Assembly: GCA_937934295.1 (NCBI GenBank)
Contig: CALHAI010000009.1
Coordinates: 1 to 64,000, forward strand
Length of the DNA stretch: 64,000 bases
Direction: 5' to 3'
DNA from: an uncultured Blastocatellia bacterium
GTDB taxonomy: Bacteria; Acidobacteriota; Blastocatellia; HR10
In this document: in pieces, positions 8,958 through 61,282 of the stretch
Position numbering within the stretch: position 1 is the first letter of the stretch
Layout of the letters: the number at the start of each line of letters is the position of its first letter
Program-made: the position numbers and the translations under genes
The notes under the pieces: model-generated
Databases searched by the model: none
Seen by the model: only the letters and a program-made list of their open reading frames with translations
What the model was told of the DNA's origin: nothing

Positions 8958-8971
8958 GATCTGACTCCTTC

Positions 8972-9643: not shown

Positions 9644-9647
9644 CGGC

Positions 9648-25435: not shown

Positions 25436-25447
25436 TGACTTAAGTCA
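25436..25447 (+). promoter_or_regulatory. Palindromic operator upstream of NO reductase (FNR/DNR-like site)
   Basis: TGACTTAAGTCA is a perfect 12-base palindrome. It has the two-half-site layout TGAC-N4-GTCA used by CRP/FNR-family regulators such as DNR, NnrR or HcpR. Its centre lies about 30 bases before a -10-like TATCTT (25472-25477), which places it near -41.5, the position for class II activation. The same site occurs at 27869-27882 before the NnrS-like gene. Confidence 0.7.
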
Positions 25448-25515
25448 TGGTCGGGGGTGATGGACAGGCTGTATCTTGGATCCCTGATCATGGGGCAGAA
25501 GGGAGGCGAGAAGCA

Positions 25516-27816: not shown

Positions 27817-27868
27817 TGGGGTGCGCGTCGAGACTCCGCCCAAGGATGAGCGGAGCGACGAGCCACCG

Positions 27869-27910
27869 GTGACTTAAGTCACGGCGCTCTCGGGCCGAGG
27901 GGGATATGCT
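27869..27910 (+). promoter_or_regulatory. Second palindromic operator and promoter before the NnrS-like operon
   Basis: GTGACTTAAGTCAC (27869-27882) is a perfect 14-base palindrome with the same core as the site before norB. TATGCT at 27905-27910 is a -10-like element, placing the start near 27917 and the palindrome centre at about -41.5. This is the geometry of FNR/DNR class II activation. Confidence 0.7.
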
Positions 27911-27970
27911 GAAGGTCTACGGGAAAGCCCATCGGGCGTCCCAAAGGACGAAACCGCAAGGAGGGAGGAG

Positions 27971-28204
27971 ATGAAGATCGCGCTCATCGTCGCGCTCATC
28001 ATCGTCGGGATCATCGCCGGAGGCGTGCTCTACATTCGCCAGAAGATCGCGGAGAAGTTCGGCGACGCGACCTTCAGAGGGGACGTGGGCGGTCTCAGTC
28101 GGCGCGTGGCGTTGCCGATGATGGACGATCAATGGTTGGGCGAGCGGAGACGTCAAGAGGTGCCGCCCGAGTCGGCGACGCGAGCGAAAGGGGGAGCAGT
28201 ATGA
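27971..28204 (+). CDS. Small single-span membrane protein in the NO cluster
   Basis: A 77-residue protein with one N-terminal transmembrane helix (ALIVALIIVGIIAGGVLYI, residues 4-22) followed by a short basic, polar tail. A strong ribosome site (AAGGAGGGAGGAG) precedes the ATG and the stop overlaps the next gene by ATGA, so it is translated and coupled to the NnrS-like protein. No family recognised. Its position as first gene after the palindrome suggests an accessory subunit or assembly factor for the membrane haem proteins here, as an inference from context only. Confidence 0.6.
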   Translation: MKIALIVALIIVGIIAGGVLYIRQKIAEKFGDATFRGDVGGLSRRVALPMMDDQWLGERRRQEVPPESATRAKGGAV

Positions 28205-30033
28205 GTGAACGACGAATCACGGGAGAGATGCTGTTGCCGGACGTGATCCGGCGCTTTCCGGCCACGCGCGCCGTGTTCGATCGGTATGGGCTTCATGGCT
28301 GCGGCGGCCCAGAAGGGCCGCGCGAGACGATCGCGTGGTTCGCGCGCTTGCACAGTGTGCCGCTTGAGCAGTTACTGGAGGAGCTGAACGCGGTGGCCGA
28401 GGGCGGGTCGCCAATCGGCGAGATCGCCGTTCAGCCTACGCGCGCGGATACGATCTATCGCCCGTTCTTTCTAGCGGGCCTCGTGACGTTGTTCACGCTT
28501 GGCTGCGCGTGGGGCGCGGTGAACCTCTGGCTCATTGGGACACGGCAAAATTTCGCCGGCGTGGATTATTCGTGGATCCTCGCGCACGGGCACGCGATGG
28601 TCTTCGGCGTGGTCGGCTTCTTCATCATGGGCTTCGCTTATCAAGCGTTCCCTCGATTCAAGCACACGAGCTTGTGGCGTCCGACGTTGGCCTTTGGGAC
28701 GCTGCCGCTCATGGCCGTCGGGATCGCGCTACAGGCGATCGCGCACCTTCTGGCACCGCGCGGGCCGTTTCTGGCGCTTGGTCTGTTGGCCGGAGCCCTG
28801 CAATTTCTGGCCGTCGCGCTCTTCGCCGGGGTGCTCCGGCAAACATTTCGACAAGCCGCTCGGCCCGAACCGTATGACCGCTTCCTCCGGGCCGCGCTCA
28901 TGTGGTTCCTGCTCGCAGCGGTCGCAAACCCCGTCATCTTCTGGCTCTTCGAGACGGCGCGCACGCGCTCGGAGTTTCTCTTTCGCGTGGCGACGTTCAA
29001 CATCCCCTATCGCGACGTGCAGCTTTTGGGGATCGCCGTGGTCATGATCCTGGGCGTCTCGCTGCGCTTTCTGCCACATGCCTACGCGTTGCGGGAGCCG
29101 ACGCCGGCCTGGCGACGATTCACCTTCTGGGGGACGAACGGCGCCATCGCAACGGCCGTCCTCACGTTTCTCGCAAGCATGCTCTCGGGCGATTCCCGAT
29201 GGCTGATCGGGCAGCCGATCGCGGCACTCGTGCTGCTGCTCATTGCGCTGGGGACGCCGCGCCAGTATCGCCTCTTCGGTCCGATCCCCGAGAGCGAGCG
29301 CGATCGCGGGGTGAAGTTCATCCGCGCGGCCTACGTATGGTTCATCGTGGCGATGGCGATGCTCGTGTTCGTTCCCGTCTACAATCTGCTCATCTATCAA
29401 CCGCTCACGGGAGCCGCCGTGCCGTTCTCGCACGCCTTCTTCGGGGCGTATCGGCATGCGCTGACGGTCGGCTTCATCACGATGATGATCGTGGGCGTTT
29501 CGAGCAAAGTCGTGCCGACGCTCTCGGGCGTGGACGTGCGGAGCGCGCCGGCGCTCTGGCCGACCTTTTGGCTGCTCAACGCCGGCAACGCTCTTCGCAT
29601 CACGGCGGAGATCGCGACCGATTATACGAGGGCAGCGTTCGCCGTGATGGGCCTCTCGGGATTCATCGAGGTTGCCGGATTGGCTCTGTGGGGATACGAG
29701 CTGGTGCGGAACATGCGCGCGGGGAAGCGGCTGGAGCGCGAAGCCTGGACTCGCGCGGCGAGCGAGCCCCTCGTCCTTGGGCCGCAGACGAAAGTCGCGG
29801 ACATTTTGGAGCGGTATCCACAGGCGCTTGAAATCTTCCTGCGGCATGGGTTCGCGCCGCTTCAGAATCCCATCTTGCGGCGGACGATGGCGCGCGTTGT
29901 GACGCTCGAGCAAGCATGTCGGCGGGAAGGCGTGGAGCTGAATCGCTTCCTGGCCGAGCTGGGGGCGTTCATCGAAGCCGAGCGGAAGGCGCACGCCTCC
30001 TCTTCAGAGGCTCGCGAAGCATTCTCCGTATAG
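28201..30033 (+). CDS. NnrS-like membrane protein with DUF1858-like domains at both ends
   Basis: A 610-residue protein with three parts. Residues 8-70 resemble a DUF1858/ScdA-N module (LLPDVIRRFPATRAVFDRYGLHGCGG). Residues 80-500 form about twelve transmembrane helices with His-rich motifs as in NnrS and haem-copper oxidase subunit I-like proteins (ILAHGHAMVFGVVGFF, FLPHAYAL, SHAFFGAYRHALTVGF). Residues 531-600 are a second DUF1858-like module (KVADILERYPQALEIFLRHGF). The Cys pair typical of DUF1858 is reduced to one Cys in the first copy and absent in the second. NnrS proteins protect against NO and metal-nitrosyl stress. Co-regulated with norB through the shared palindrome. Confidence 0.75.
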   Translation: MSERRITGEMLLPDVIRRFPATRAVFDRYGLHGCGGPEGPRETIAWFARLHSVPLEQLLEELNAVAEGGSPIGEIAVQPTRADTIYRPFFLAGLVTLFTLGCAWGAVNLWLIGTRQNFAGVDYSWILAHGHAMVFGVVGFFIMGFAYQAFPRFKHTSLWRPTLAFGTLPLMAVGIALQAIAHLLAPRGPFLALGLLAGALQFLAVALFAGVLRQTFRQAARPEPYDRFLRAALMWFLLAAVANPVIFWLFETARTRSEFLFRVATFNIPYRDVQLLGIAVVMILGVSLRFLPHAYALREPTPAWRRFTFWGTNGAIATAVLTFLASMLSGDSRWLIGQPIAALVLLLIALGTPRQYRLFGPIPESERDRGVKFIRAAYVWFIVAMAMLVFVPVYNLLIYQPLTGAAVPFSHAFFGAYRHALTVGFITMMIVGVSSKVVPTLSGVDVRSAPALWPTFWLLNAGNALRITAEIATDYTRAAFAVMGLSGFIEVAGLALWGYELVRNMRAGKRLEREAWTRAASEPLVLGPQTKVADILERYPQALEIFLRHGFAPLQNPILRRTMARVVTLEQACRREGVELNRFLAELGAFIEAERKAHASSSEAREAFSV

Positions 30034-30042
30034 GAGGTGGAG

Positions 30043-30582
30043 ATGTCGCCCGACGAGCGCGTCCACATCGAACAGGAATATGCGCGCGATCTCCTGGAGA
30101 TCGTCGAGCGCGAACCGAGCTTCTTGGCGCTGCTTCGCGTGCACGAGCGATTGAACGAGTTGTTCCAGCAGCATCAAGAGGCGCTGCTGGAACAAGACAT
30201 CGTGCGGGCGCGGGAGCGGCTCGTCGCCTACGAGCGCGAGCTGCTCGCGCATATGCATCTGGAGGAGGATATCCTTTTGCCCGTCTATGCGCGCGCTGGG
30301 GCGATCCCAGGTGGACCGATCGAGCTGTTCCTCGGCGAGCACCGGAAGATGCGGGAATTCCTCGAGCGGTTCCGTGCGGCGCTCGCGGAGCTGGAGGCGT
30401 ATCCGACAGACCGGCGACGAGGGATCATTCGGCTCTTCGACGAGCAGACGATGTTCAAGCATCTCGTCGAGCATCACGATCTGCGCGAGCAGAACATTCT
30501 CTATCCGACGCTCGATCGCATCACGACCGAAGCGGAGCGGCGCGAGCTGCTGCGGCGATGCCTCGATCCGTATCGGCCGTGA
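30043..30582 (+). CDS. Hemerythrin-domain protein 1
   Basis: A 179-residue four-helix protein with His and carboxylate ligands of a non-haem di-iron centre: LRVHERLNELF, HMHLEEDILLP, GEHRKMREF and EHHDLREQNILYP. HHE proteins bind O2 or NO or store iron, and similar ones repair nitrosylated iron-sulphur clusters. ATG 30043 is preceded by TAGGAGGTGG, which overlaps the stop of the NnrS-like gene, so it is coupled to it. A GTG at 30037 is inside the ribosome site and is not used. Confidence 0.85.
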   Translation: MSPDERVHIEQEYARDLLEIVEREPSFLALLRVHERLNELFQQHQEALLEQDIVRARERLVAYERELLAHMHLEEDILLPVYARAGAIPGGPIELFLGEHRKMREFLERFRAALAELEAYPTDRRRGIIRLFDEQTMFKHLVEHHDLREQNILYPTLDRITTEAERRELLRRCLDPYRP

Positions 30583-30635
30583 ACGCGCATGGGATGTTTC
30601 GAGACAGAGACGAACTTTGGAGAAGGAGGGGGGAT

Positions 30636-31190
30636 ATGCCCGGACCTGTTGAGATTCTGACGCACGAACATCGGATCATCGAGCGAGCGCTTCGGGCGCT
30701 GCGCGGCGTCTGTCAGAGACTCGAGCGCGGCATGTCGGTTCCCGCCGATGTGCCTGCGCAGCTTGTGGGATTCATCCAGACGTTCGCCGATCGTTGCCAT
30801 CATGGGAAGGAGGAGAAGCATCTCTTCCCGGTGCTCGAAGAGCAGGGCGTGCCGCGCGAGGGCGGACCAATCGGCGTCATGCTCCAGGAGCACGAGCTGG
30901 GGCGCGGATTCGTGCGCGAGATGGCCGAGGCGGCATCGGCCTACGCGCGCGGGGAAACGGACGCGGCCTCTCGCTTTGTGCGCGCAGCTCAGTCGTACAT
31001 GGACTTGCTGGCGCAGCACATCTACAAAGAGGATAATGTGCTCTTTCGGATCGCCGAGAACGTTCTCGATGCGCCGACGAAAGCAGCGCTTGTGGAAGCG
31101 TTCGAGCGCGAGGAAGCGGCGCTTGGTCTCGGAACGCATGAGCACTATGAGGCGATGGTCAGCGAATTGGAGAAGGCGTGGGCGGCCTGA
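30636..31190 (+). CDS. Hemerythrin-domain protein 2
   Basis: A 184-residue protein with a second, distinct HHE domain: LTHEHRIIERAL, ADRCHHGKEEKHLFPVL, MLQEHELGRG and LAQHIYKEDNVLFRIAE provide the di-iron ligands. It starts 53 bases after hemerythrin 1 behind a very strong AGAAGGAGGGGGG ribosome site. An open frame in the same phase reaches back to 29916 but is antisense-like in content and lacks any domain. Two tandem but diverged hemerythrins next to qNOR and NnrS support a role in NO or oxygen scavenging. Confidence 0.87.
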   Translation: MPGPVEILTHEHRIIERALRALRGVCQRLERGMSVPADVPAQLVGFIQTFADRCHHGKEEKHLFPVLEEQGVPREGGPIGVMLQEHELGRGFVREMAEAASAYARGETDAASRFVRAAQSYMDLLAQHIYKEDNVLFRIAENVLDAPTKAALVEAFEREEAALGLGTHEHYEAMVSELEKAWAA

Positions 31191-48238: not shown

Positions 48239-48257
48239 CTCTGCGGGAGGTGTGGCG

Positions 48258-51095
48258 ATGGGTGCTCGCGCGAGTCGGGTTGGAAGAATGACGTGGGTTT
48301 TGATTCTCCTCGCGCTCGTCCTTCAAGCAGCCGTGGCATCGGACGATCCCGTCCTGCTCATCCGCATGCCGGATGAGACGGCTCTGGCGAGCGACCCTTC
48401 TGATGCCGGCATCGCTCGTTTTGTCGCCGAGCGGAGCCCGTACTTACAAATGACCGTGCACGATCTGGTTCGAGATCGAGCTTTCGCCCGTCAAGTCCTC
48501 GGGCAGCGGCAGATTTTTGAAGAACTGGAAGCCTTCCGGGCGCAAGAGAACATAACGGCGCGCGTGCGGTTCATCGCCTGGCCCGATGCCTTCCGCTTCT
48601 TCGCCGACTATGTCTCGGACAAGAGTAATCCGCCCATCGTCGCTCAGCTTGGCGATACCTGGGCGTCGTACTTCCGTTCGCTCGGCGTCGTGGCCTCCGA
48701 GCGGCGACACACCTGGGACGTGCGCGTGCTGTGGTATTGGAAAGATATGGTCGCGGCCCACGAGATCGCCGAGGGCGACGGTTTCTTGAGCACCTGTCGA
48801 AGGTTGCATGAAGCGCCGCCTTCGGGGCTGATAGCCCCGCTGGCGATTCCAACAGCTCCGGATTGGAACCTGCTGCATGATCTTTCGATTTGGCTCTACA
48901 ATGCCGGATTGCCCACGCTGATCTTGACCGACAAGAAGCCCGGCCTGCTTCCGTGGAAGGAAGCCATCTTCGCCGGTCCCGAAGGTGAACGCGCCGTTCA
49001 TTTCCTCATTCAACTTGCCAGGCGGGGATACGTGGCGCTTCCCGAGAAGCGGAGCGCGGAGCTGGCCGAAGATTTCCTCACGCGAAAATACGCCATGGTC
49101 ATCTTGGGGCCGTGGCTCACCAAACTGGCGGAGAAGACGCTCGGGACGGAGTGGCGCCACCAGATCGGCGCCACGTTGCCGCCACGCATTGGTTCACCGG
49201 CGGCCGTAACCATGAAGGGCGGATCCCTGCTTGTCGTGCTGGACCCGACGCGGGGGCGAGATCTGGAAGCCGTTCGCCGCGCGCGACGGCTGGTGGAGTT
49301 TTTCGCCTCATCGGAGAGCCAACGGCGATACGCTGAAGCCCTTGGAGCTCTTCCGGCCCGCCAAGAGGTGCTCGAAGCGTCTCCCTATTTTGATCTCTTC
49401 CAGATGGCGCTAGAGCAGGGGCGAACCTACCCGCAAATTCCCGAATGGGCGCCGGTCGTCGAGAACTTAGCGACACGAGACAATCTCTATGCCTTCTGGA
49501 AGCGGCTGTCGGCGCTGACTGAGGTACAGGCGACGGCCACTGAAGCCGAGCAAACGGCGCGCACCAAGCTGATTCTGGCCGCTCTGCATTCGGCCGAAAT
49601 GGACATCAACCGGGAGCTCTCTCCGGGACGACTGGCCTCCCTCCGCCCCTGGCTTCTGGCCATCGGGGCTCTTCTCTTTGCCATAGCTGCCCTCTCGTTC
49701 TGGCACCGCCACGTGGAACGAAAGCGGGTCGAGGAGCTGAGACAGACGCGTGATCTGTTGGCCACGCTGCAACGGCGCCTGGCTTCAGTGAAGGAAGCCG
49801 CGCCAGCCTCACCCGAGATCGCAACCTGGGCTGGGAAAGGCTATCCCGCCCTCTATCTGGACGCCGCTCATCGGAAGGTCTGGGTGCGTCGCTCACCCAC
49901 GCACCCTCTTGAAGAAATCATTCACGGAGCCGAATATGACCTGTTTCGGCATATCCTCGAGTGTCTCCAGGCCGGATGGCACGAGACGCATTGGATCTGG
50001 AGCTATGTGATCTGGCCGACGGCGCAACCGAAATTCCCCAAAGAGGCCTTCGCCACCCACTGTACGAAGCTGCGCAAGAAGATCGAAACCGTCTGGCAGC
50101 TCGGCCCCCTGCTGGGCCGAGGTGCTCGTCACAGCGGCGTGATCCCCATCGAGGTGAAGGACGCGCACTTTTACACCGAAGCCCTCCCGGAAGGAACAGC
50201 GTATCCTATCTGGGCCCTTTTTCATGCTTCGGAAAAGGCGCTGCAGGCTTATAGGGCTCATTCGTGGGAGGCAGCCTTGCACCACGCCAGGGAGCTTGTA
50301 ACAATGGACCCAGATAACTGGCTGGGCAATACACTTGTTGGCCATCTCGTCGTGCAAAAGCGCCTGGCAGCAGAAGATCCCCTCGCCCAGAGAACCATCG
50401 CCTTCGCGCATCAACAAAAATCCCACTATGACCAAGCGCTAGAGAAGACCGATCTTCTTCCTGAAGACAAAATCGAATCGGAACAGAAACAGCGCCTCGA
50501 AGCCCGACGGGAGATCTTGCAGCTCATCACCACGCACCAAGGGATGACGCAACCGACAACCCCGCACGCCAAACCTCTCACTCCCTGGCGCAACCGTGAC
50601 CAATTGCTGGCCTGGTTGGCCTATCTCAACGGAGAAAAATACTCCCTCTCCAGCGAAGAAATTAAAGCCCTTCGGGAAGTTCAACGTTTCCTCCATAACC
50701 ATCTCCGATGGGCTGCCCCACAGCAAGTGGATGAGCATTTTCGCTCTTTCCTCCAGGATCTCGTTGGAGATCGCACGAGCTGGCCCGATGAGCGATTGCC
50801 CCGAAGCAAACAAGCTTTCAAGAACCGGGCAGCAGATTATGTGCTGGCCAGCCTCTATGGCCTCCAGGACGATAAGGAATCAAAGGCGATTACGAAAGCC
50901 CAGAATCTCAGAAAGCTGTGGAGTATAAGGGCTCAACTGCGAAAGGAGCTTCAGCAGGAGCCCACTTCCGAGCAACTCTCTCACGCCTGTCGGCGACGCT
51001 ACGGGTGGAGCCGCTCTTTGGTCGAGCGCCTTCTCGATCTGGAGCGGTCATCCTACCACTTTTATGAAGGCCACTTATCTGGATCCGGCCGCTAG
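48258..51095 (+). CDS. Putative membrane one-component regulator: solute-binding domain, TM helix, OmpR-like winged helix, sigma-region-3-like tail
   Basis: A 945-residue protein. Order: signal/anchor helix (10-27); periplasmic family-1 sugar-binding-protein-like domain (about 28-450), with the segments GPEGERAVHFLIQLARRGYV, AMVILGPWL and FFASSESQRRYAEALGALP seen in ABC sugar-binding proteins; one helix (LLAIGALLFAIAALSFW, about 466-482); coiled stretch (484-512); a winged helix resembling OmpR/PhoB output domains (about 528-640: strands near YLDAAHRKVWVRR, helix AEYDLFRHILECL, recognition helix FATHCTKLRKKIE); a TPR-like patch (655-700); and a tail whose last 50 residues (LRKELQQEPTSEQLSHACRRRYGWS) look like sigma-70 region 3. 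It lies upstream of the secreted protein, TonB receptor, GH3 and GH144 genes. Base composition falls in the last 700 bases. Confidence 0.68.
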   Translation: MGARASRVGRMTWVLILLALVLQAAVASDDPVLLIRMPDETALASDPSDAGIARFVAERSPYLQMTVHDLVRDRAFARQVLGQRQIFEELEAFRAQENITARVRFIAWPDAFRFFADYVSDKSNPPIVAQLGDTWASYFRSLGVVASERRHTWDVRVLWYWKDMVAAHEIAEGDGFLSTCRRLHEAPPSGLIAPLAIPTAPDWNLLHDLSIWLYNAGLPTLILTDKKPGLLPWKEAIFAGPEGERAVHFLIQLARRGYVALPEKRSAELAEDFLTRKYAMVILGPWLTKLAEKTLGTEWRHQIGATLPPRIGSPAAVTMKGGSLLVVLDPTRGRDLEAVRRARRLVEFFASSESQRRYAEALGALPARQEVLEASPYFDLFQMALEQGRTYPQIPEWAPVVENLATRDNLYAFWKRLSALTEVQATATEAEQTARTKLILAALHSAEMDINRELSPGRLASLRPWLLAIGALLFAIAALSFWHRHVERKRVEELRQTRDLLATLQRRLASVKEAAPASPEIATWAGKGYPALYLDAAHRKVWVRRSPTHPLEEIIHGAEYDLFRHILECLQAGWHETHWIWSYVIWPTAQPKFPKEAFATHCTKLRKKIETVWQLGPLLGRGARHSGVIPIEVKDAHFYTEALPEGTAYPIWALFHASEKALQAYRAHSWEAALHHARELVTMDPDNWLGNTLVGHLVVQKRLAAEDPLAQRTIAFAHQQKSHYDQALEKTDLLPEDKIESEQKQRLEARREILQLITTHQGMTQPTTPHAKPLTPWRNRDQLLAWLAYLNGEKYSLSSEEIKALREVQRFLHNHLRWAAPQQVDEHFRSFLQDLVGDRTSWPDERLPRSKQAFKNRAADYVLASLYGLQDDKESKAITKAQNLRKLWSIRAQLRKELQQEPTSEQLSHACRRRYGWSRSLVERLLDLERSSYHFYEGHLSGSGR

Positions 51096-51189
51096 GAAAT
51101 ATTTCCGACGAGAAAGGAAGTGCCAGCTCTGTCGAAAGGGCTAGGTGTCTCGAGATCTGGCGTGTATGTTGGAACTTACTGGTTCGTGA

Positions 51190-51199
51190 AAACTAGTTT
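51190..51199 (+). promoter_or_regulatory. Short palindrome in the leader of the secreted-protein gene
   Basis: AAACTAGTTT is a perfect 10-base palindrome 18 bases before the next ATG. It overlaps a weak promoter candidate (TTGGAA at 51169-51174 with TAGTTT at 51194-51199, 19-base spacer). It could be an operator of the upstream regulator, but this is untested and short palindromes are common. Confidence 0.25.
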
Positions 51200-51217
51200 G
51201 ATTCAGGGAGGTGTCCG

Positions 51218-51961
51218 ATGAAAAAGATTGGGCTTATCGTGATTCTCCTCGGGCTGATTGGGTGGCCTGGCCCACTGGTCGCGGGCTCGCCGCAGGACAA
51301 AGAGGTTAAAGAGGTGGTCGTTCTCCCACGGGTTGTGCATGGGGGCGATCCTCAATCGAAATTCTGCTTCGTCAAGGTACCCCCGGTGGTTGCCTTTTCC
51401 GACGCCGAGGTCAGCCATCCCGGCCAATTTGCCAACCGTCACGACTGGGCACTCTCAGAGGATGGCGAAGAACCCTTGGCCTTCGGTATTGATGATTTCT
51501 TCGAGTTCAGCTTCGATGTGGTCCTTGTGGGAACCCCGCCGGGAACGAAGTTTGCCGAGCGAAAGGAGGCGGGAATCATCATCACGACATCCGTTGCGGG
51601 AGAGGGACAATACATTATCAACACCGATGCGCATGAAGTGGTTGCCTTCGGCGGCCCGTTCCCCTTTTTCAAGTTCAATCTGAGCTACAGTTCCGGGGAT
51701 GTCATTACGTTGGGGATCAAGTACTTCAAGGATATGGATGGCAAGCGCAAGATCGTCTACCGGGCCAACGACCAGTCGAGTCCGGCTCTGGCATTTGAAA
51801 ATCTTGAACAAGGGATTCCCGGCCCGTTCTTCATCAAGGGCTACATCCAGACGGTGATCAACACGGAGATTGCGACAAACAGCGCGGCAGCCGCATTCAC
51901 CAACATTCGTTGGAATGGCAAGCTCCTGACGGGCGGGACGACGGCGGGCGACTGCCGGTGA
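51218..51961 (+). CDS. Secreted protein of unknown function in the glycan locus
   Basis: A 247-residue protein with a clear signal peptide (KKIGLIVILLGLIGWPGPLVAG). The mature part is rich in beta-strand segments and aromatic residues (PFPFFKFNLSYSSGDVITLGIKYFKD, GPFFIKGYIQTVINTEIATN), which would suit a secreted carbohydrate-binding or surface-layer-like protein, but no family is recognised. AGGGAGGTGTCCG precedes the ATG. It sits between the regulator and the TonB receptor, in the place where Bacteroidetes loci carry surface glycan-binding proteins; that comparison is positional only. Base composition is less GC-rich than in neighbours. Confidence 0.62.
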   Translation: MKKIGLIVILLGLIGWPGPLVAGSPQDKEVKEVVVLPRVVHGGDPQSKFCFVKVPPVVAFSDAEVSHPGQFANRHDWALSEDGEEPLAFGIDDFFEFSFDVVLVGTPPGTKFAERKEAGIIITTSVAGEGQYIINTDAHEVVAFGGPFPFFKFNLSYSSGDVITLGIKYFKDMDGKRKIVYRANDQSSPALAFENLEQGIPGPFFIKGYIQTVINTEIATNSAAAAFTNIRWNGKLLTGGTTAGDCR

Positions 51962-52037
51962 GAACGGCGCTCAGCTCTTGTCGCGATTCAGGTCCTTGAG
52001 CGAAGGGGCGGGCGACAATCTTAGCCTGTGGGTTATG

Positions 52038-52078
52038 TTTCGATCCCTGACCGACTTTGAACCGGTCGGGGATCGAAA
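52038..52078 (+). ncRNA. Strong hairpin between secreted-protein and TonB receptor genes
   Basis: TTTCGATCCCTGACCG (52038-52053) pairs with CGGTCGGGGATCGAAA (52063-52078): 16 pairs, one of them T:G, around a 9-base loop. No T-tract follows. It could be an intra-operon attenuator, an RNA-processing or stabilising element that sets the receptor level, or a protein-binding operator. It lies 76 bases after the upstream stop and 43 before the receptor start. Confidence 0.6.
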
Positions 52079-52121
52079 TGCTCTCACCAAGGGTGAGGGT
52101 GCTGCTTTGTTGGAGGTCATC

Positions 52122-55100
52122 ATGTTTGGTGTCAGATCCCGTTGGCTTCTCTTGTCCTGGATCTCTGTGCTGGGGGTGACGGCCACCGGTCTTGCCCAAT
52201 TCAAGGCGGGGATTCAGGGGACCGTCACAGATCCCACGGGGGCCGTCATTGCTGGTGCACCGGTCGTGCTCACCAGCCATGAGACGGGCAAAACGCAACA
52301 AGTCGTCACCAGCGCCGAGGGGTTTTATCGCTTCTCCGGGCTGCCGCCGGGAACATATCGGGTCACGGCAGAATACCCCGGCTTCAAAAAGAAAGTCATC
52401 GAGCGCGTGATCGTCCGCGCCGAGGAGGTTCACGGCCTCGATCTTATTCTTGAACCGGGCGAGATCGCCGAGACGCTCACTGTTGAGGCGAGCGGCGAAG
52501 CTATGGCCCTTCACACGGAGAATCCCGATGTGACGCGCGCGGTGACAAATCGCGAGGTGCTGCGACTGCCGCAATTTGGGCGCGATCCTTACGAGCTGAT
52601 TCGCTTGACGCCGGGCGTTCTGGGCCTTGGCGCGCGCGGCAGTCGGGGCGAATCCGTCGGTCTGCCCAATACGACCGGCCCCGGCGGATCGAACGTCTCG
52701 ATCTTCCAGGTCGAGAATCAGGTTCCCCTGAGTGCCAACGGCCAGCGTCTGTCGGCCAACAACTACATGATTGATGGCGTCAGCGTCAACAGTCTGGGCT
52801 GGGCTGGAGCTGCCGTCGTCACCCCCAATCAAGAGTCGGTCAAAGAGATTCGCGTCCTCTCCAGCGCCTATTCGGCCGAGTATGGGCGAAATACCGGCGC
52901 GCAGATTCAGGTCGTCTCGCAAAACGGAACGAACGAGTTTCACGGCAGCGCCATCATCAAATACAACGATCCCGATTTGAACGCCTTCAATCGCTGGGGC
53001 GGGATCACCGGTGATCCGAACCGAGATGCGCCTCCGGTGCGCGTGGAGCAGCTCTATCGTCAGTTTGCCGGGAGTCTCGGCGGGCCCGTTGTCAAGAATC
53101 GGCTCTTTTTCTTCTTCTCCTACGAGGGATTGCGCAGCAACAACACGGACTTCGTGAGCACCTGGATCGAGACACCTGAATTTCGGCAACTGGTCAGGCA
53201 GCAGAGGGCAGGCGGGGTGACGGCACGAATCTTTGGAGCCGAAGGGATCGCGCCGCGCGCTCTCACGGTTCTGCCGGCGGATTGTTCCCTCTTTCTCAAC
53301 GATCCGCGTCGCTGCCAGGCCGTCGCCGGAGGCCTGGACATCGGATCGCTCACCGGAAGCCTTGGTCGCTATGTCCCCGTCGGCAACACGGTGGGCGGGG
53401 GGCTTGACGGCATCCCCGACGTTCAATTCGTCCGCGTCGCCCTGCCCAACATCACTCGGGGCGATCAATTCAATGCCCGCGTGGATTTCACCCGCGGCAA
53501 CGATCAGTTCGCCGTGAGCACGTACATCACGCGCCGCAACGACTTCAAGAATGTCGCCCAGAGTCGTCCTATCGGTGACCTGCGATCCCGACCGATGAAT
53601 TCGGCGGGCACGGTGACCTGGATTCGCACGCTCGCACCCACGCTGCTCAATGAGTGGCGAGCGAACTTCACCCGCTTCACCTTCAATGAGGTGAAGGACA
53701 ATCCCGAAGCCAACTGGGGCATCCCTCGCGTTGAGGTCGAAGGGCCCTCGGCGCTGCGACTGGAGATCGGGGTGATCCGCGCGGAGACGACACCCGGCAT
53801 CTTCGCGCAGAACACCTACGAGGTTCGGGATACGCTCACTTGGGTGCGCGGCGCGAAGACGCTCAAATTCGGCCTGGAGATGCGCCGCGAGCAGGACAAC
53901 AACAACCTCGCCGGCGGAGCCCGTCCGCTTTATCTCTTTCGCGGGCTGTACAACCTGGCCAACGATGCGCCCTATCTGGAAGCGATCAACGCCGATCCGG
54001 GCACCGGCTTGCCCGCCGATGCGCAGCGATACTTCCGCTACACCACCTATGGGTTCTTCTCCCAAAACGATTGGAAAGTTCGTCCCAACCTCACGCTGAA
54101 TCTCGGACTTCGCTATGAATACTTCACGCCACTTCGGGAGAAGCGCCGTCGTTTGAGCAACCTCGTCTTCCCGCCCGGACAGCTCGACCAGTCGCGAATC
54201 GTCGTGAGCGATCAACTGTTTGAGCCGGATCGGAACAATTTTGCGCCGCGCCTCGGTTTTGCCTGGAGCCCGAAGATGTGGAAAGATAAGCTCGTGCTGC
54301 GGGGTGGATTCGGCCTTGGCTACAACCGCATCCCCGGCGTGCTCTTTGGCAACACGCGAGGGAACCCGCCGTTTTTCGCCCGCCATTTCATCTGCTGCGG
54401 GGGATCGGCTTCTGAAGGGCTCTTTCCTTTCGCCGGCGGCCGCATCCTCTACGTGTTGGGCACAAGCCGTGCGCTGACGAGCTATCCGCTGAATCCGGCG
54501 CTGGCGCAAGGTATCGATCCGGCGACCGGAGGCGTGCGCGGCAGCCGAGTCGAGATTTACGGCACGGAACGAAAGGTGCCGAACGCTTACGTCTACTTCT
54601 GGTCGCTGGAGACCGAATACCAACTGCCGGGGAACTTCACCGCGTCCCTAGGCTACCAAGCCAGTAGCAGTCACAAGCTCATTCGCATCATCAACCAGAA
54701 CTTGCTCTATCCGCGCAATCCGTTTTTCGGTCCCGTCTTTTTCCTACTCCCTGACGTCAACGCCAACTATCACGCCATGCTGGCCCGGTTGACGCATCCG
54801 TTCTCACGCGGATTCCGACTTGATGTGAGCTACCGCCTCGGCAAGAGCATTGACACGCTCTCTTACGAAGGGCCGGGGGCGCCGACCAATCAAACCTATC
54901 CGAGCGACTTGCGGTCCGAGCGTGGCCCATCGGATTATGACGTGCGCCATCATACCGTCATCTCGGCGCTGTGGGATCTGCCGCTCCTGCGCACGCGCCC
55001 CGATTTCTGGGGCAGGGCTTTCGGCGGCTGGCAGCTCAACGGCATCTGGACGATCTCCACGGGCTTCCCCTATACGGTGAAGATCGGCCAGAGCCTTCGC

Positions 55101-55523
55101 TTTGCCAACGGCGAGCCCTGGGGGCCGATACGCCCCACGCGCTATTTTGGCGGCGCGCTCACGGATCGCAATGACCAAGCGTTCATTCGACCGGGCGGCA
55201 ATTTCCCCGGCGGCGGCGCGCGCTATTTCGACAGCTCGACGCTCGGTCCTCCGGGCATCGGACGCAACTCGTTTCGCGGGCCGGGCTATCGCAGCGTGGA
55301 CCTCAGCCTGGTGAAAGAGACGGCCCTGCCGCGCATTCCGGGACTGGGCGAGGCCGCCCGACTCGAAATCCGGTTCAACTTCCTCAACGCCCTCAACGAG
55401 CTGAATCTGCAACCGCTTGGCTTCTTCGATGAGGGCGTCTTTGCCGATCGTCCGAACTTCGGCCGGGCGGCGCGGGGGCTTGCCGGTCGCGTCATCGAAT
55501 TCCAAGCGCGGTTCAGTTTTTGA
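52122..55523 (+). CDS. TonB-dependent receptor, Oar-like, of the glycan locus
   Basis: A 1133-residue outer-membrane receptor. ATG 52122, with GGAGGTCATC upstream, gives a signal peptide (LLLSWISVLGVTATGLAQ). Then a carboxypeptidase-regulatory-like domain (about 25-110: IQGTVTDPTGAVIAGAPV, YRFSGLPPGTYRV), a plug (NYMIDGVSVNSLG, YSAEYGRNTGAQIQVVSQNG) and a barrel ending in ARFSF. The frame is open 48 codons upstream through the hairpin and lacks a signal there. GH3 and GH144 genes follow within a few bases, so it probably imports the glycan fragment that they make or break. No SusD-like lipoprotein accompanies it. Confidence 0.92.
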   Translation: MFGVRSRWLLLSWISVLGVTATGLAQFKAGIQGTVTDPTGAVIAGAPVVLTSHETGKTQQVVTSAEGFYRFSGLPPGTYRVTAEYPGFKKKVIERVIVRAEEVHGLDLILEPGEIAETLTVEASGEAMALHTENPDVTRAVTNREVLRLPQFGRDPYELIRLTPGVLGLGARGSRGESVGLPNTTGPGGSNVSIFQVENQVPLSANGQRLSANNYMIDGVSVNSLGWAGAAVVTPNQESVKEIRVLSSAYSAEYGRNTGAQIQVVSQNGTNEFHGSAIIKYNDPDLNAFNRWGGITGDPNRDAPPVRVEQLYRQFAGSLGGPVVKNRLFFFFSYEGLRSNNTDFVSTWIETPEFRQLVRQQRAGGVTARIFGAEGIAPRALTVLPADCSLFLNDPRRCQAVAGGLDIGSLTGSLGRYVPVGNTVGGGLDGIPDVQFVRVALPNITRGDQFNARVDFTRGNDQFAVSTYITRRNDFKNVAQSRPIGDLRSRPMNSAGTVTWIRTLAPTLLNEWRANFTRFTFNEVKDNPEANWGIPRVEVEGPSALRLEIGVIRAETTPGIFAQNTYEVRDTLTWVRGAKTLKFGLEMRREQDNNNLAGGARPLYLFRGLYNLANDAPYLEAINADPGTGLPADAQRYFRYTTYGFFSQNDWKVRPNLTLNLGLRYEYFTPLREKRRRLSNLVFPPGQLDQSRIVVSDQLFEPDRNNFAPRLGFAWSPKMWKDKLVLRGGFGLGYNRIPGVLFGNTRGNPPFFARHFICCGGSASEGLFPFAGGRILYVLGTSRALTSYPLNPALAQGIDPATGGVRGSRVEIYGTERKVPNAYVYFWSLETEYQLPGNFTASLGYQASSSHKLIRIINQNLLYPRNPFFGPVFFLLPDVNANYHAMLARLTHPFSRGFRLDVSYRLGKSIDTLSYEGPGAPTNQTYPSDLRSERGPSDYDVRHHTVISALWDLPLLRTRPDFWGRAFGGWQLNGIWTISTGFPYTVKIGQSLRFANGEPWGPIRPTRYFGGALTDRNDQAFIRPGGNFPGGGARYFDSSTLGPPGIGRNSFRGPGYRSVDLSLVKETALPRIPGLGEAARLEIRFNFLNALNELNLQPLGFFDEGVFADRPNFGRAARGLAGRVIEFQARFSF

Positions 55524-55539
55524 TCCGTGAGCGACGTTC

Positions 55540-57792
55540 ATGCGTCAGTACGCAAGCAGCTACAGAAGCACAAGAGGGTGGAAGCTCACGATGTGGATGT
55601 TCGGCCTGATGAGCGCCTTGCTCCTGACAGGGATACCCGTTCCCCCCGCGTCGCCCGCCGATGAGATCGAGCGCAAGATTGCTGCCCTGCTCCGGCAGAT
55701 GACGCTTGAGGAGAAGCTCGGGCAGCTTCAGATGCTCGATGGCGACGTGGATGGCTCTTATCGCCCCGACCATCTCGATCTCGTGCGGCGGGGACTTGTC
55801 GGCGCGTTCCTCAACGTGCGCGGAGCGCGCCGCGTGAACGAGCTGCAGCGGATCGCCGTCGAGGAATCGAGGTTGAAGATCCCGCTTCTTTTCGGCTTCG
55901 ATGTCCTGCACGGCTATCGGACGATCTTTCCCGTGCCGCTTGCGGAAGCGAGCAGTTGGGATCCCGAGGCCGTCCAGCGGGCCGCCAGCATCGCGGCCGC
56001 CGAAGCGCGAGCTGCTGGCGTCACCTGGACCTTCGCCCCCATGGTGGACATCGCCCGCGATCCTCGCTGGGGCCGCATCGTCGAAGGCTCGGGCGAAGAC
56101 CCGCATCTGGGCTCGGTCATGGCACGAGCCCGCGTGCGGGGATTTCAAGGGCACGACTACAGCGCCTCAGATCGAGTCCTCGCCTGCGCCAAACACTTCG
56201 TCGGCTATGGCGCGGCCGAAGGCGGACGCGATTACAACACGACCGATATGTCCGAACGAACGTTGCGGGAGATTTATCTTCCTCCCTTCAAGGCGGCCGT
56301 CGAGGCGGGCGTGGGCACGATCATGAGCGCCTTCAACGATCTCAGCGGCATTCCGGCTTCGGCCAATCCCTTCACGCTGACGACCATTCTACGGGGCGAG
56401 TGGAAGTTCGACGGCGTTGTCCTGAGCGATTACACGGCCATTGAAGAACTCATGGCGCACGGGCTCGCTGCCGATGGGGCCGAAGCCGCGCGCTACGCGC
56501 TTGATGCCGGCGTGGACATGGAGATGGTGAGCCGCCTCTACAGCCGGCACGTGCCGCAGCTCATCAAAGAGGGCAAGCTCTCGATGGCCACTCTGGATGA
56601 GGCGGTGCGGCGCGTGCTGCGGATCAAATTCCGATTGGGATTGTTCGAGCGCCCGTACGCCGATGAAGCGCGCGAGCGCGCCGTGCTTCTCCGCCCGGAG
56701 CATCGAGCGGCGGCGCGCGAGATGGCGGCGCGTTCGATCGTGCTCTTGAAGAACGAAGGCCACCTGCTGCCGCTGAGCAAGACGGTGCGAACGCTCGCCG
56801 TCATCGGACCTCTGGCCGATGATCAACGAAATCTGCTCGGCCCCTGGTCGGGGGACGGACGCGCCGAGGATGTCGTCGCCATCCTGTCGGGCATCACGGC
56901 TAAGCTCGGGCCAACGGCGCGAGTCCTCCACGCGCGAGGATGTGAGATCACCGACTGCTCCTCACGCGAAATCGCCGAAGCCGTGCGCCTCGCGCGCCAG
57001 GCCGAGGTCGCCATCGTTGTCGTCGGGGAATCGGCGGAGATGAGCGGCGAAGCGGCCTCGCGCGCCTCGCTCGATCTGCCGGGACGACAACTGGAACTGG
57101 TGAAAGCGATCCACGCCACCGGCACGCCGACGGTCGTCCTGCTCGTCAACGGACGCCCGCTCACGATCCCCTGGATCGCCGAGCATGTGCCGGCCATCCT
57201 CGAAACCTGGTTCGCCGGAACCGAGGCCGGTCACGCCATCGCCGACGTCCTCTTCGGTGATGTCAATCCCGGCGGCAAATTGCCCGTGACGTTTCCCCGC
57301 TCGGTCGGGCAGATCCCGATCTACTACAACCACAAGAGGACGGGGAGACCGCCCAATCCCACAAACAAGTACACGTCCAAGTATCTCGATGAAGAAGTGA
57401 CGCCGCTCTTCCCCTTCGGCTACGGGTTGAGCTACAGCCAATTTCAAATCTCACATCTCCAACTGAGCCGCCAGCGAATCCGACCGGATGAGTCGCTGAC
57501 TGTCAGCGTCGAGGTTGAAAACATTGGCTCTCGCACGGGCGATGAAGTCGTCCAGCTCTACATTTGCGATGTGGCGGCCAGCGTGACGCGACCGGTGCGG
57601 GAACTGAAAGGCTTCCGGAGGATCACCCTGCGACCGGGAGAAAAGGGTCGCATCACGTTCACGCTCGGGCCGGAGCATCTGGGCTTTTACGATCGTCAGA
57701 TGCAGTTTATCGTCGAGCCGGGAGAATTCCGCATCTTCGTCGGCACCAGCTCCGTCGGTGGATTGGAAGCGAGCTTCGAGGTGGTACAATAG
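55540..57792 (+). CDS. Glycoside hydrolase family 3 beta-glucosidase-like enzyme
   Basis: A 750-residue exported enzyme. After a signal segment (MFGLMSALLLTGIPVPP) come the GH3 N-domain with Lys218-His219 (CAKHFVGYG) and nucleophile Asp297 (GVVLSDYTA), the C-domain (VIGPLADDQRNLLGPWSG, VVVGESAEMSGE, FPFGYGLSYSQF) and a fibronectin III-like end (about 650-750). It removes glucosyl units from beta-linked oligosaccharides; some GH3 enzymes prefer sophorose (beta-1,2). The ATG at 55540 lacks a good ribosome site; ATG 55591 (MWMFGL), preceded by GAGGGTGGAAG, would keep the signal and may be the true start. Confidence 0.92.
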   Translation: MRQYASSYRSTRGWKLTMWMFGLMSALLLTGIPVPPASPADEIERKIAALLRQMTLEEKLGQLQMLDGDVDGSYRPDHLDLVRRGLVGAFLNVRGARRVNELQRIAVEESRLKIPLLFGFDVLHGYRTIFPVPLAEASSWDPEAVQRAASIAAAEARAAGVTWTFAPMVDIARDPRWGRIVEGSGEDPHLGSVMARARVRGFQGHDYSASDRVLACAKHFVGYGAAEGGRDYNTTDMSERTLREIYLPPFKAAVEAGVGTIMSAFNDLSGIPASANPFTLTTILRGEWKFDGVVLSDYTAIEELMAHGLAADGAEAARYALDAGVDMEMVSRLYSRHVPQLIKEGKLSMATLDEAVRRVLRIKFRLGLFERPYADEARERAVLLRPEHRAAAREMAARSIVLLKNEGHLLPLSKTVRTLAVIGPLADDQRNLLGPWSGDGRAEDVVAILSGITAKLGPTARVLHARGCEITDCSSREIAEAVRLARQAEVAIVVVGESAEMSGEAASRASLDLPGRQLELVKAIHATGTPTVVLLVNGRPLTIPWIAEHVPAILETWFAGTEAGHAIADVLFGDVNPGGKLPVTFPRSVGQIPIYYNHKRTGRPPNPTNKYTSKYLDEEVTPLFPFGYGLSYSQFQISHLQLSRQRIRPDESLTVSVEVENIGSRTGDEVVQLYICDVAASVTRPVRELKGFRRITLRPGEKGRITFTLGPEHLGFYDRQMQFIVEPGEFRIFVGTSSVGGLEASFEVVQ
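57785..57790 (+). promoter_or_regulatory. TACAAT box (extended -10, TGG before it) six bases before a GTG start
   Basis: TGGTACAAT ends at 57790 and the GTG of the glucanase-like gene follows after exactly six bases. The hexamer is made from the last codons and stop of the GH3 gene, so the gene may have its own leaderless transcript in addition to the operon mRNA. Chance overlap is possible. Confidence 0.4.
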
Positions 57793-57796
57793 AGTT

Positions 57797-59125
57797 GTGG
57801 ATCGCCGGATCGTCATCGGGCTCATCGGCCTCTTGCTCATGGCCCCCGCGCAATGTGGGTTGGCGCCGACGCCCCAGCAGCTCTCACCAGAAGACGAGGC
57901 CTTTCTGGAAGACCTCTCCCGCCGCGCCTTTTTATTCTTTTGGGAGCAGACCGATCCGAACACGGGCCTGGTGCGTGATCGCGCCGGAGTCAACGGCGAA
58001 CGTCGGTCGGATCTCGCGAGCATTGCGGCGACCGGTTTCGGCCTGACGGCGCTCTGCATTGCCGCCGAACGGGGCTGGGTCAGTCAGGTCGAGGCCCGCC
58101 AGCGCGCTCGCACGACGCTTGAGTTTTTCGCCGAGCGAGCCTTCCACAAGAATGGGTGGTTTTACCACTACCTGAACGCCAGGACCGGCGCTCGCGAGTG
58201 GGCGAGCGAGGTTTCGACGATTGATACGGCTCTGCTTCTGGCCGGCGTGCTCACGGTGCGGCAGTGCTTCGCTTCCGATGCCGAGATCGTCGCCCTGGCC
58301 ACGACGATCTACGAGCGGGTGGATTTCCCCTGGATGCTCAACGGGCATCCGACCTTGTTCTCACAGGGGTGGATGCCGGAGAGTGGATTTCTCTCCGCCC
58401 GCTGGGACACGTATAGCGAGCACATGATCCTCTATCTCCTGGCCATCGCCTCGCCGACGCATCCGATCTCGCCCGAGGCGTGGTATGCCTGGCGGCGGAA
58501 TCCGATCACCTACGCGGGCTACACATACATCCACGGGGCGCCGCCGCTTTTCATCCATCAGTATTCGCACGCTTGGATAGATTTTCGCCGTCGCCGAGAA
58601 GAACGTGGGATGCGCACCGATTGGTTCGAGAATTCGATCCGGGCCACGCGCGCCCATCGAGAATTTTGCCTTCGACTCGCTCGGGAATTTCCCGCGAGTT
58701 ATTCGGAGAACGTCTGGGGCATCACGGCCTCCGATTGCGTGCGGCAGGAGCGCATCCAATACTGCGATTGGGGTGGGCCGCCGCCCCGGGGCTTTCCCCG
58801 CGATGGGCGGATTGATGGAACGGTCGTGCCCAGCGCCGCCGCCGGGTCGCTCATGTTCACGCCGGAGATTTCGCTGCCGGCGCTCCGCACCATGAAGGAA
58901 AGGTTCTCCGCCGAGTACGGCGAGCGCTTTTACGGTCGCTACGGCTTCACCGATGCCTTCAATCCGACGACCGGCTGGGTGAATGCGGATGTGATCGGCA
59001 TCAGCGTGGGCATCACGCTGCTCAGCGCCGAAAACTTGCGCGCGGGAACCGTCTGGCACTTCTTCATGCGCAATCCGGAGATCGAGCGAGCCCTCATCTT
59101 CATTGGCCTCCGACCGGAAGGGTAA
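57797..59125 (+). CDS. Glycoside hydrolase of the PF10091 group, likely GH144 beta-1,2-glucanase-like
   Basis: A 442-residue exported (alpha/alpha)-barrel enzyme. A short signal (RRIVIGLIGLLLMAPAQ) precedes a domain with family blocks: FLEDLSRRAFLFFWEQTDPNTG, ASEVSTIDTALLLAGVL, SEHMILYLLAIASPTHPI, FIHQYSHAWIDFRRR, ENVWGITASDC and GFTDAFNPTTGWV. These match the Glycoamylase (PF10091) group, where the characterised CAZy family is GH144, endo-beta-1,2-glucanase, known to lie beside GH3 enzymes acting on sophorooligosaccharides. Activity on another beta-glucan cannot be excluded. GTG 57797, four bases after the GH3 stop, is preferred over an in-frame GTG at 57758. Confidence 0.85.
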   Translation: MDRRIVIGLIGLLLMAPAQCGLAPTPQQLSPEDEAFLEDLSRRAFLFFWEQTDPNTGLVRDRAGVNGERRSDLASIAATGFGLTALCIAAERGWVSQVEARQRARTTLEFFAERAFHKNGWFYHYLNARTGAREWASEVSTIDTALLLAGVLTVRQCFASDAEIVALATTIYERVDFPWMLNGHPTLFSQGWMPESGFLSARWDTYSEHMILYLLAIASPTHPISPEAWYAWRRNPITYAGYTYIHGAPPLFIHQYSHAWIDFRRRREERGMRTDWFENSIRATRAHREFCLRLAREFPASYSENVWGITASDCVRQERIQYCDWGGPPPRGFPRDGRIDGTVVPSAAAGSLMFTPEISLPALRTMKERFSAEYGERFYGRYGFTDAFNPTTGWVNADVIGISVGITLLSAENLRAGTVWHFFMRNPEIERALIFIGLRPEG

Positions 59126-59262: not shown

Positions 59263-59268
59263 TATAAT
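59263..59268 (+). promoter_or_regulatory. Consensus extended -10 (TGG-TATAAT) seven bases before a GTG start
   Basis: TATAAT preceded by TGG lies seven bases before GTG 59276. The first ATG of the frame (59267) falls inside the hexamer, so it cannot be on the message made from this promoter; translation from the GTG at the 5' end is the consistent reading. Confidence 0.6.
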
Positions 59269-59275
59269 GCCCCTT

Positions 59276-61282
59276 GTGAGACCTCGCGGCGTAAGACGTC
59301 GGAGATTTATCGCGCTATTTCTCATCGCCCTTGGGCTCAAGGGGCTGCCGCTGCGGGCACAGGAAGCTACGCTCCGCATCTTCTTCCCCGATGTCGGTCA
59401 TGGACATGCCGTGCTCGTCATCTCGCCAGCGGGGCGCACGCTGCTCATTGATGGTGGTCCAGATGGAGCCGGAAATGCTGTCCTTGTGCCATGGATGCGC
59501 GACCTCGGACTCTCCCGTCTCGATGTGATGATCGCCACCCATTACGATGTTGATCACATTGGCGGACTGGATGAGGTCGCTGCAGCTTTCCCCCCGGCAG
59601 TCGCCTACGATAGCGGCGATCTCACAGCTCCTCGTGAGAGTCGATTCTTCATCGAGTATGTGAGCACTATTGGGGCGGCCCGTCGGACGATCCGCGCGGG
59701 AGAGGTCATTGACCTCGGCGGAGGCGTTCGCGCTACATGTCTTGTTGTCAACGGCGATCTCTTGAGCGGCGGGCGCGTCGGCATCTTCGGCCGCTCCGAT
59801 CCGTTCGATCAGGTGGATAACAGCGCTTCAATTGGCCTCCTCATCCAATACGGCGATTTCGACCTCTTCATCGCAGGTGATCTCACGGGCGGAGGCGGCG
59901 TGACGACGGACGTCGAATCCACGGTCGCGCAGCTTGTCGGCGACGTAGACGTGCTGCAATTGAATCATCACGGGAGCGCGACGAGCAGCAACGCGACGTT
60001 CCTCTCGCGGCTCAAAGCCGAAGTCGGGATCGTGCAAGCCGCGACAGCGAACCCGTTCGGTCATCCGAGTGTGGAAGTCGTGGATCGCTTCGTCACGACG
60101 ACGCCGACAAGTGGACTGACGCCCATTCCCCCCGATGGAGACTTCCCACTCCCTCGCCCTCCCGTCCTTTTTCAAACACAGGCGAGCCCACCTTCGGATG
60201 CGCGCGTGAGCCAGCAAGGATTTGTCGCCGAAGGAACGATCGCCATGGAGACCGACGGACGTCAATACACGGTGCGTGGCGAGCGGCTATTGCCGCGGAC
60301 CTTCCCGACCGACGGCGCCGAACGTGGCGTGCGCACCGATTTCCCGCCGACGATCTTGATGCGAACTTCTCCCATTGTTCCGCAAGCCGGAGAGGCCGTT
60401 CTCCTCATGGCGCAGATCGCGGACGATTCCGGGCAGATTCGTTCGACCCGCTTGACCGTCTCCGTGAATGAAGGAGAGCCGATGCCCATTCCGATCGCGC
60501 GCTTTTCGCAAACGCTCTTTGTTGGGGAGATCCCTGGGCAACCGGATGGGGCACTCGTGCGCTATTGCCTCACCGCCGAGGATGAGGTGGGGCAAGCGAC
60601 GACGGCCTGTGGCCTCTATTTCGCCGGCATCACACCGATTCGCGCTCTCCGAGCTGTGGACGCCTGGGGCGTTCCGCGTTACGAAGGCGCGGTCGCTCGT
60701 ATCGTCGGCACGGTGACCGTCAGAAGCGGAGCGTTCCATCGCACGCAAACCGATGTGTTCGTGGAAGATGAGACCGGAGGGATTCGCGTCTTCGAATTGC
60801 GATCTCAAAGCCAGTGGGTGAACCTTGGAGATCGCGTTCTGGCTACCGGGCGCGTGAAGAGCTTCAACGGGCTTTTGGAACTCGACATCACCAATCCGCT
60901 GCCTGTGCCGCCGTTCCCCTTTCCGTTCGGCATTCGCGTGCTCAGCCGCTCAGATACAGAGCCCGCTCCCCGACCCGCACGCATTGCCGACGTGGGCGAA
61001 GCCCTTGAAGGGCAGCTCGTGCGAATCGAGGGGGTGAGGATCATTCAGGGTGCGATCCCGCCGTCCGGCAACGCACAGCTCACTATCACCGACGGCACGG
61101 GGACGACGACGCTGCGCATCCTCGGCTCGACGGACATCCCCGGATTACCGACGCCGACCGGCCCCTTCACCCTCATCGGCATCGTCGGACAGTTCGACCG
61201 TTTTCGCCCCTTCACGCGCGGATATCAGATCTTGCCTCGCCGCCGCGCGGATGTCGTTCTCGCCGCTCACCCATCGGCTTAA
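59276..61282 (+). CDS. Secreted metallo-beta-lactamase-fold hydrolase with OB-fold domain (ComEC-MBL-like)
   Basis: A 668-residue exported protein. After a signal peptide (RFIALFLIALGLKGLPLRAQ), residues 30-275 form a metallo-beta-lactamase domain like that of ComEC/Rec2: DVGHGHAVLVIS, TLLIDGGPDG, ATHYDVDHIGGL (the HxDxDH metal site), LFIAGDLTGGG and QLNHHGSATSSN. The middle is beta-sandwich-like (about 350-450). The region around 460-540 (ARIVGTVTVRSGAFHRTQTD, FVEDETGGIRVFE) and a second copy near 570-650 look like OB-folds of nucleic-acid-binding type. Together this suggests an extracellular nuclease or phosphodiesterase. It runs convergent to the next gene with a 6-base gap. Confidence 0.8.
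   Translation: MRPRGVRRRRFIALFLIALGLKGLPLRAQEATLRIFFPDVGHGHAVLVISPAGRTLLIDGGPDGAGNAVLVPWMRDLGLSRLDVMIATHYDVDHIGGLDEVAAAFPPAVAYDSGDLTAPRESRFFIEYVSTIGAARRTIRAGEVIDLGGGVRATCLVVNGDLLSGGRVGIFGRSDPFDQVDNSASIGLLIQYGDFDLFIAGDLTGGGGVTTDVESTVAQLVGDVDVLQLNHHGSATSSNATFLSRLKAEVGIVQAATANPFGHPSVEVVDRFVTTTPTSGLTPIPPDGDFPLPRPPVLFQTQASPPSDARVSQQGFVAEGTIAMETDGRQYTVRGERLLPRTFPTDGAERGVRTDFPPTILMRTSPIVPQAGEAVLLMAQIADDSGQIRSTRLTVSVNEGEPMPIPIARFSQTLFVGEIPGQPDGALVRYCLTAEDEVGQATTACGLYFAGITPIRALRAVDAWGVPRYEGAVARIVGTVTVRSGAFHRTQTDVFVEDETGGIRVFELRSQSQWVNLGDRVLATGRVKSFNGLLELDITNPLPVPPFPFPFGIRVLSRSDTEPAPRPARIADVGEALEGQLVRIEGVRIIQGAIPPSGNAQLTITDGTGTTTLRILGSTDIPGLPTPTGPFTLIGIVGQFDRFRPFTRGYQILPRRRADVVLAAHPSA

Follow-up and report, generated by a model that had tools for sequence, protein, structure and literature searches.

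A putative transmembrane beta-glucoside sensor with winged-helix and sigma-like parts, and a candidate operator at its neighbouring TonB-glycosidase operon, in Blastocatellia

The 64,000-nucleotide stretch of DNA from an uncultured Blastocatellia bacterium that we analysed (the window) encodes a 945-residue protein that is probably a transmembrane one-component beta-glucoside sensor controlling a TonB-GH3-glucanase operon through the palindrome GGAAATATTTCC. In the proposed scheme, whose ligand, direct palindrome binding, polymerase contact and sign of regulation we infer, a beta-glucoside or beta-gluco-oligosaccharide would bind an extracytoplasmic solute-binding protein (SBP) domain, and closure of that domain would be transmitted via a single transmembrane (TM) helix and a continuous helical linker to the cytoplasmic part of the protein. 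There, a winged helix would bind GGAAATATTTCC upstream of the operon encoding the TonB receptor, the GH3 enzyme and the glucanase, a sigma2-sigma3-like domain would engage RNA polymerase at that operon, and the operon would be switched by sugar. The reading is strengthened by invariant tryptophans in the sensor, by a version of the sensor that is fused to a kinase, and by the palindrome, which tracks the regulator across genomes. A sequence-only reading of the same DNA had already proposed a one-component layout, and most of that proposal stands: an SBP domain predicted to lie outside, one TM helix, a predicted winged helix inside, an adjacent TonB-glycosidase operon, and neither an ABC permease nor a kinase adjoining the gene. 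A plain winged helix is probably not the whole output.

The regulator gene and its relatives

The whole regulator gene lies at 48258..51095 (+) in a single open frame, which runs uninterrupted for 945 residues from an ATG at 48258 to a stop at 51095, with a GTG at 48252 as an alternative start. Full-length, collinear relatives were found in six other Blastocatellia (G002, G004, G006, G023, G135 and G146) at 57-71% identity end to end; G002 and G004 belong to the window genome's genus, G006 to another family, and G023 is Pyrinomonas methylaliphatogenes K22 (hereafter K22). Because these relatives are full-length and collinear, a frame error or gene-fusion artefact joining two genes is excluded, and the earlier claim of one intact frame at 48258-51095 was upheld. 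Estimates of synonymous rates, where these were obtainable, put dN low, at between roughly one tenth and one quarter of dS in each of the regulator's four parts, and between genera the winged helix was the best conserved domain (75-86%, vs 65-74% for the SBP domain). The copy in G001, 86% identical, is frameshifted by a one-base insertion relative to the window near residue 740 (L040, G001:C4, about 11030), and this insertion may be real or an assembly error. A further copy, 85% identical but truncated to its N-terminal part, lies at 12335-12994 in G005 (L037, G005:C58), a genome that carries a kinase-fused sensor elsewhere.

By sequence search the regulator family is narrow. A profile of the cytoplasmic half matched eight of the class's 162 genomes. 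In 396 genomes drawn from the phylum, its one match beyond the class was due to chance. A contig scan across 84,980 species returned five records. A match of the C-terminal profile in G433 was rejected as chance; it sits in an RND-type pump. The host is an acidobacterium, and the relatives named in databases are from Acidobacteriota and Pyrinomonas, so the comparison with Bacteroidetes loci that had been drawn from the sequence alone is inapplicable.

Sensor, membrane passage and cytoplasmic half

Hydropathy gave two membrane-grade hydrophobic stretches in the regulator, and only two, at about residues 8-35 and 458-484, in agreement with the earlier description of a signal or anchor helix followed by one further hydrophobic helix. 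The first holds the predicted signal peptide or N-terminal anchor (48288..48344 (+), residues 11-29). The second, supported by hydropathy and alignment, holds the TM helix that would pass the signal (49644..49703 (+), residues 463-482), and after it comes the basic WHRHVERKRVEELRQTR, which fits a cytoplasmic side. The predicted cytoplasmic helical linker that follows (49704..49826 (+), residues 483-523) overlaps a model helix at 459-512, and it is here that the kinase fusion of a relative diverges from the regulator.

The extracytoplasmic sugar solute-binding domain is assigned to 48345..49622 (+) (residues 30-455). It scored 39.1 bits against SBP_bac_8 (cut-off 27) and found sugar SBPs in the PDB at E 1.7e-18 by single sequence and 1.4e-22 by profile, bearing out the proposal that the N-terminal half is a sugar solute-binding domain; the assignment rests on sequence because the full-length AlphaFold model, built on a shallow alignment, was unusable for this part. 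The nearest solved proteins in the profile search were CbpB (7x0i, E 1.4e-22) and a beta-glycoside-binding protein (7c63, E 6e-22). Three tryptophans of 7c63 (W41, W67 and W177) align with W108, W135 and W203 of the regulator, which are invariant in 9/9 alignment rows. They are the residues mutated in PDB entries 7c6x (W41A), 7c6z (W67A) and 7c6f (W177X); the alignment of W67 was seen directly in the W67A entry, while W41 and W177 were placed via a one-residue offset. Our reading of why they were mutated is that they would be ligand-binding residues.

No partner ABC permease is encoded near the gene in the window, where the neighbours are TolC, the TonB receptor and glycosidases, and none was noticed beside the relatives, in neighbourhoods read from frame starts only. 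The relative in G005 shares the SBP domain and TM helix (58% identical over residues 3-493) and then continues into PAS, HisKA and HATPase domains (L034 5909-8527). Since the same sensor and TM helix stand on a kinase in G005 and on a DNA-binding half in the other genomes, they are, by this comparison of domain order, a signal-input module, and if that is true the one sensor is interchangeable between outputs, a kinase in one case and direct control of transcription in the other. A tree gave no clear placement of the kinase fusion as arising inside the winged-helix group or not.

The cytoplasmic half (residues 490-945) gave nothing significant in Pfam and NCBIfam, and Trans_reg_C in Pfam gave no match up to E=1. 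Residues 524-655 were aligned by hhalign to 32 Trans_reg_C domains from the same class (P=5e-4, 68 columns) in OmpR register, which places THCTKLRKKIE of the regulator on the OmpR motif DVHIRRLRQKLE. This score was reached by 0/100 column shuffles, and neither the SBP profile nor a reversal of the profile gave anything; the hhalign probabilities were about 30% despite the small P-values. The structural model has strands at 531-535, 540-544 and 552-556 and then three helices, which is the strand-strand-strand-helix-helix-helix order of a winged helix, with low confidence after residue 584. The winged helix earlier placed at 528-640 is therefore retained on a weak but controlled profile match, as a predicted OmpR-type domain at 49836..50192 (+) (residues 527-645). 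The adjoining region at 50193..50552 (+) (residues 646-765) appears TPR-like, being helical in the model and giving weak TPR matches (TPR_2 in 5/7 members; best TPR_16 0.0017). Compared with SARP/BTAD activators, in which a TPR-like domain comes after a winged helix, it gave these weak TPR matches and no match to BTAD. Hexokinase-type matches from a PDB sequence search with the cytoplasmic profile were set aside as chance.

At its C-terminus the protein has a diverged sigma2-sigma3-like domain, predicted at 50583..51053 (+) (residues 776-932). Aligned by hhalign with seven alternative sigma factors, the tail matched at P=4e-4 over 129 columns with regions 2 and 3 collinear (2.1-2.4-3), and 0/60 shuffles scored as high. 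The likeness to region 3 noticed earlier in the last 50 residues is borne out, and in this profile match it reaches across both sigma2 and sigma3. When the tail was modelled alone with AlphaFold (pLDDT 87.6, pTM 0.79), 50/50 of the PDB matches listed by Foldseek were sigma-70 entries (RpoD, RpoS and SigB types), their probabilities mostly 0.8-0.99, yet with E of at least 0.03 and TM-scores of about 0.4. Homology of the tail to sigma2-sigma3 is probable from profile and model together, and with a sigma2-sigma3-like module of this size the output of the regulator is probably something other than a plain winged helix. Could the winged-helix and sigma resemblances both be chance, and the cytoplasmic half no transcription factor? 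The lack of a curated family match would suit that view, which we find barely credible in the face of a separate profile match for each resemblance, with shuffled and reversed profiles as controls, the outcome of the structural search and the co-occurring palindrome.

The tail may act as a sigma, a recruiter or a mimic. In the alignment an invariant pair, Q833-D834, sits opposite the Q-E by which region 2.2 of sigma-70 contacts the beta' clamp, and it is the sole kept pair bearing on core RNA polymerase binding. The tryptophans of sigma region 2.3-2.4 are not kept, and sigma4, responsible for -35 recognition, is missing, the frame ending past the sigma3-like part. One alternative is a membrane-tethered sigma proper, in which sigma2-sigma3 of the tail would be active, sigma4 would be replaced by the winged helix together with the TPR-like region, and the ligand, perhaps with intramembrane proteolysis, would enable the protein to assemble a holoenzyme of its own at the promoter of the operon. 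The collinear profile match, the exclusively sigma-70 character of the listed structural matches and the Q-D pair argue for it, as do precedents with a fused membrane part (IutY and ECF48/52/53; PMC8999054); the missing sigma4, the lost tryptophans and a visual inspection that showed no common -10-like element downstream of the palindrome argue against it, and we judge it unlikely. To the same low degree we entertain a sugar-gated, membrane-bound initiation factor, combining an SBP with its own sigma2-sigma3 and with a winged helix that stands in for sigma4, by which an outside ligand would directly create a promoter-specific holoenzyme at the membrane. The strong divergence of the tail from working sigma factors, again with no sigma4, would also agree with a PhyR-like decoy for an anti-sigma factor or other partner that leaves the winged helix as the sole DNA-binding part; given that no anti-sigma gene was recognised beside the regulator, and that the tail, unlike PhyR, is fused to a DNA-binding domain, such mimicry seems distinctly improbable.

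The neighbouring operon and its candidate operator

Downstream of the regulator, the first operon gene (51218..51961 (+)) encodes a 247-aa secreted protein with no family match. It is followed by the likely targets of the one-component sensor: a TonB-dependent (OAR-like) receptor (52128..55523 (+)), a BglX-like GH3 beta-glucosidase (55540..57792 (+); NF011678 BglX, 849 bits; its PDB relatives are periplasmic beta-glucosidases and Lin1840), and a PF10091 glycosidase related to endo-beta-1,2-glucanase (57758..59125 (+)). In G135 a TonB receptor lies directly downstream of the regulator and in K22 a cellulase-like GH5 gene comes after it, while relatives of the GH3 and TonB genes in G006, K22 and G146 are present but unlinked, on another contig than the regulator. 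Another 64 genomes have TonB relatives but lack the regulator; the receptor therefore does not need the regulator, and co-occurrence with the receptor was discarded as a link between the two because it is not specific. A clean deletion in G003 that joins window 48760 to 58173 (L036, G003:C16, about 10489) takes out the 247-aa gene, the TonB receptor and the GH3 gene, with most of the regulator before them and part of the glycosidase after them, and since a single deletion is one event, this joint loss is not independent evidence.

Several side observations were made on these genes and their surroundings. The 247-aa secreted protein is conserved, and among ten genomes searched was found in G000 (the window genome), G001, G002, G004 and G006 only. 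In K22 (L060), the reverse strand of the long gap that separates GH3 from TonB (about 8900-9660) resembles, by eye, a fragment of a helix-turn-helix transposase. Elsewhere in the window, positions 25447-31190 hold a row of genes for NorB-like nitric-oxide reductase, NnrS-like and hemerythrin-domain proteins, and 59267-61282 encodes a ComEC/metallo-beta-lactamase-like domain with a DUF5689/OB-fold-like C-terminus.

The candidate operator GGAAATATTTCC is located at 51095..51106, about 110 bases 5' of the downstream gene. It is found upstream of the TonB/GH3 operon in 8/8 regulator-bearing genomes, exactly in G000, G001, G002 and G004, with one mismatch in G006, K22 and G135, and with two in G146. 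Allowing at most one mismatch, it occurs in 7/8 operon upstreams with the regulator vs 0/40 control loci (hypergeometric P 1e-7 by locus, and 1.7e-4 by lineage with four lineages vs 17 genera). The controls were upstream regions of up to 1.75 kb from 39 TonB loci in 38 regulator-free genomes and from one K22 paralogue, and several belong to G135's own genus. As the palindrome was spotted, by eye, in the very eight upstreams that also supplied its count, only the contrast with the 40 controls is a test. Shared neighbourhood is no explanation of the pattern, since in G006, K22 and G146 the regulator and the operon are on different contigs. Neighbourhood sequence totalling about 335 kb (some regions counted twice) contained no further copies with at most one mismatch.

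Two DNA sites, one on either side of the regulator gene, had been proposed from the sequence alone. The downstream one was kept, narrowed to 51095-51106, while nothing comparable was found upstream of the regulator, where the absence of a GGAAATATTTCC copy led us to reject autoregulation. That same absence, together with the TonB relatives in regulator-free genomes, would be expected if the protein signalled without controlling the adjoining operon and the palindrome were read by a different, co-occurring regulator. The palindrome nevertheless tracks this regulator in four lineages and is missing from the control loci, including those from G135's own genus, which makes a separate reader of the palindrome quite unlikely. 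The candidate operator can be put to the test, and the regulator is present in an isolated organism, Pyrinomonas methylaliphatogenes K22.

Comparison with known systems

No description of an SBP-TM-winged helix or SBP-TM-sigma protein was recognised in open-access full text (subscription papers were outside the scope), in keeping with the initial impression that no regulator of this layout had been described. Transmembrane one-component regulators and membrane-tethered sigmas are known kinds, and we see a minority chance that the regulator is categorically new. If the reading is true, this would be, within the open-access search, the first described protein in which a single helix links a sugar-binding domain of transporter type to both a winged helix and a sigma-like module. 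It would also mean that regulation of an Acidobacteriota TonB-dependent glycan locus can do without SusR-type, hybrid two-component or anti-sigma systems.

Like ToxR and CadC, the regulator would couple an OmpR-type winged helix across a single TM helix to an extracytoplasmic sensor without a phosphorelay. Those proteins have an N-terminal winged helix and a C-terminal periplasmic sensor, whereas the order here is reversed, as had been pointed out from the sequence, and the regulator differs further in its SBP sensor and in the additional TPR-like and sigma2-3-like parts. SgrR likewise fuses a winged-helix-type DNA-binding part to a solute-binding-protein fold, but it is cytosolic, its DNA-binding part is N-terminal and its SBP domain is of family 5. 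BvgS and EvgS, and the relative in G005, couple an SBP sensor across the membrane to a signalling output, which in their case is a histidine kinase; the sensors of BvgS are family-3 SBPs. PhyR likewise bears a sigma-like domain, but as a response regulator it is cytosolic, and it sequesters NepR, an anti-sigma factor.

Membrane-tethered ECF sigma factors (IutY/ECF243 and ECF48/52/53) unite a sigma module with an extracytoplasmic part in one membrane protein, and in the ECF52 member SCO4117 that part is a carbohydrate-binding domain (PMC8999054). They consist of sigma2 and sigma4 with a C-terminal, anti-sigma-like membrane part (PMC8999054), whereas the regulator described here has a true SBP at its N-terminus, a predicted winged helix, and a C-terminal sigma2- and sigma3-like module with no sigma4.
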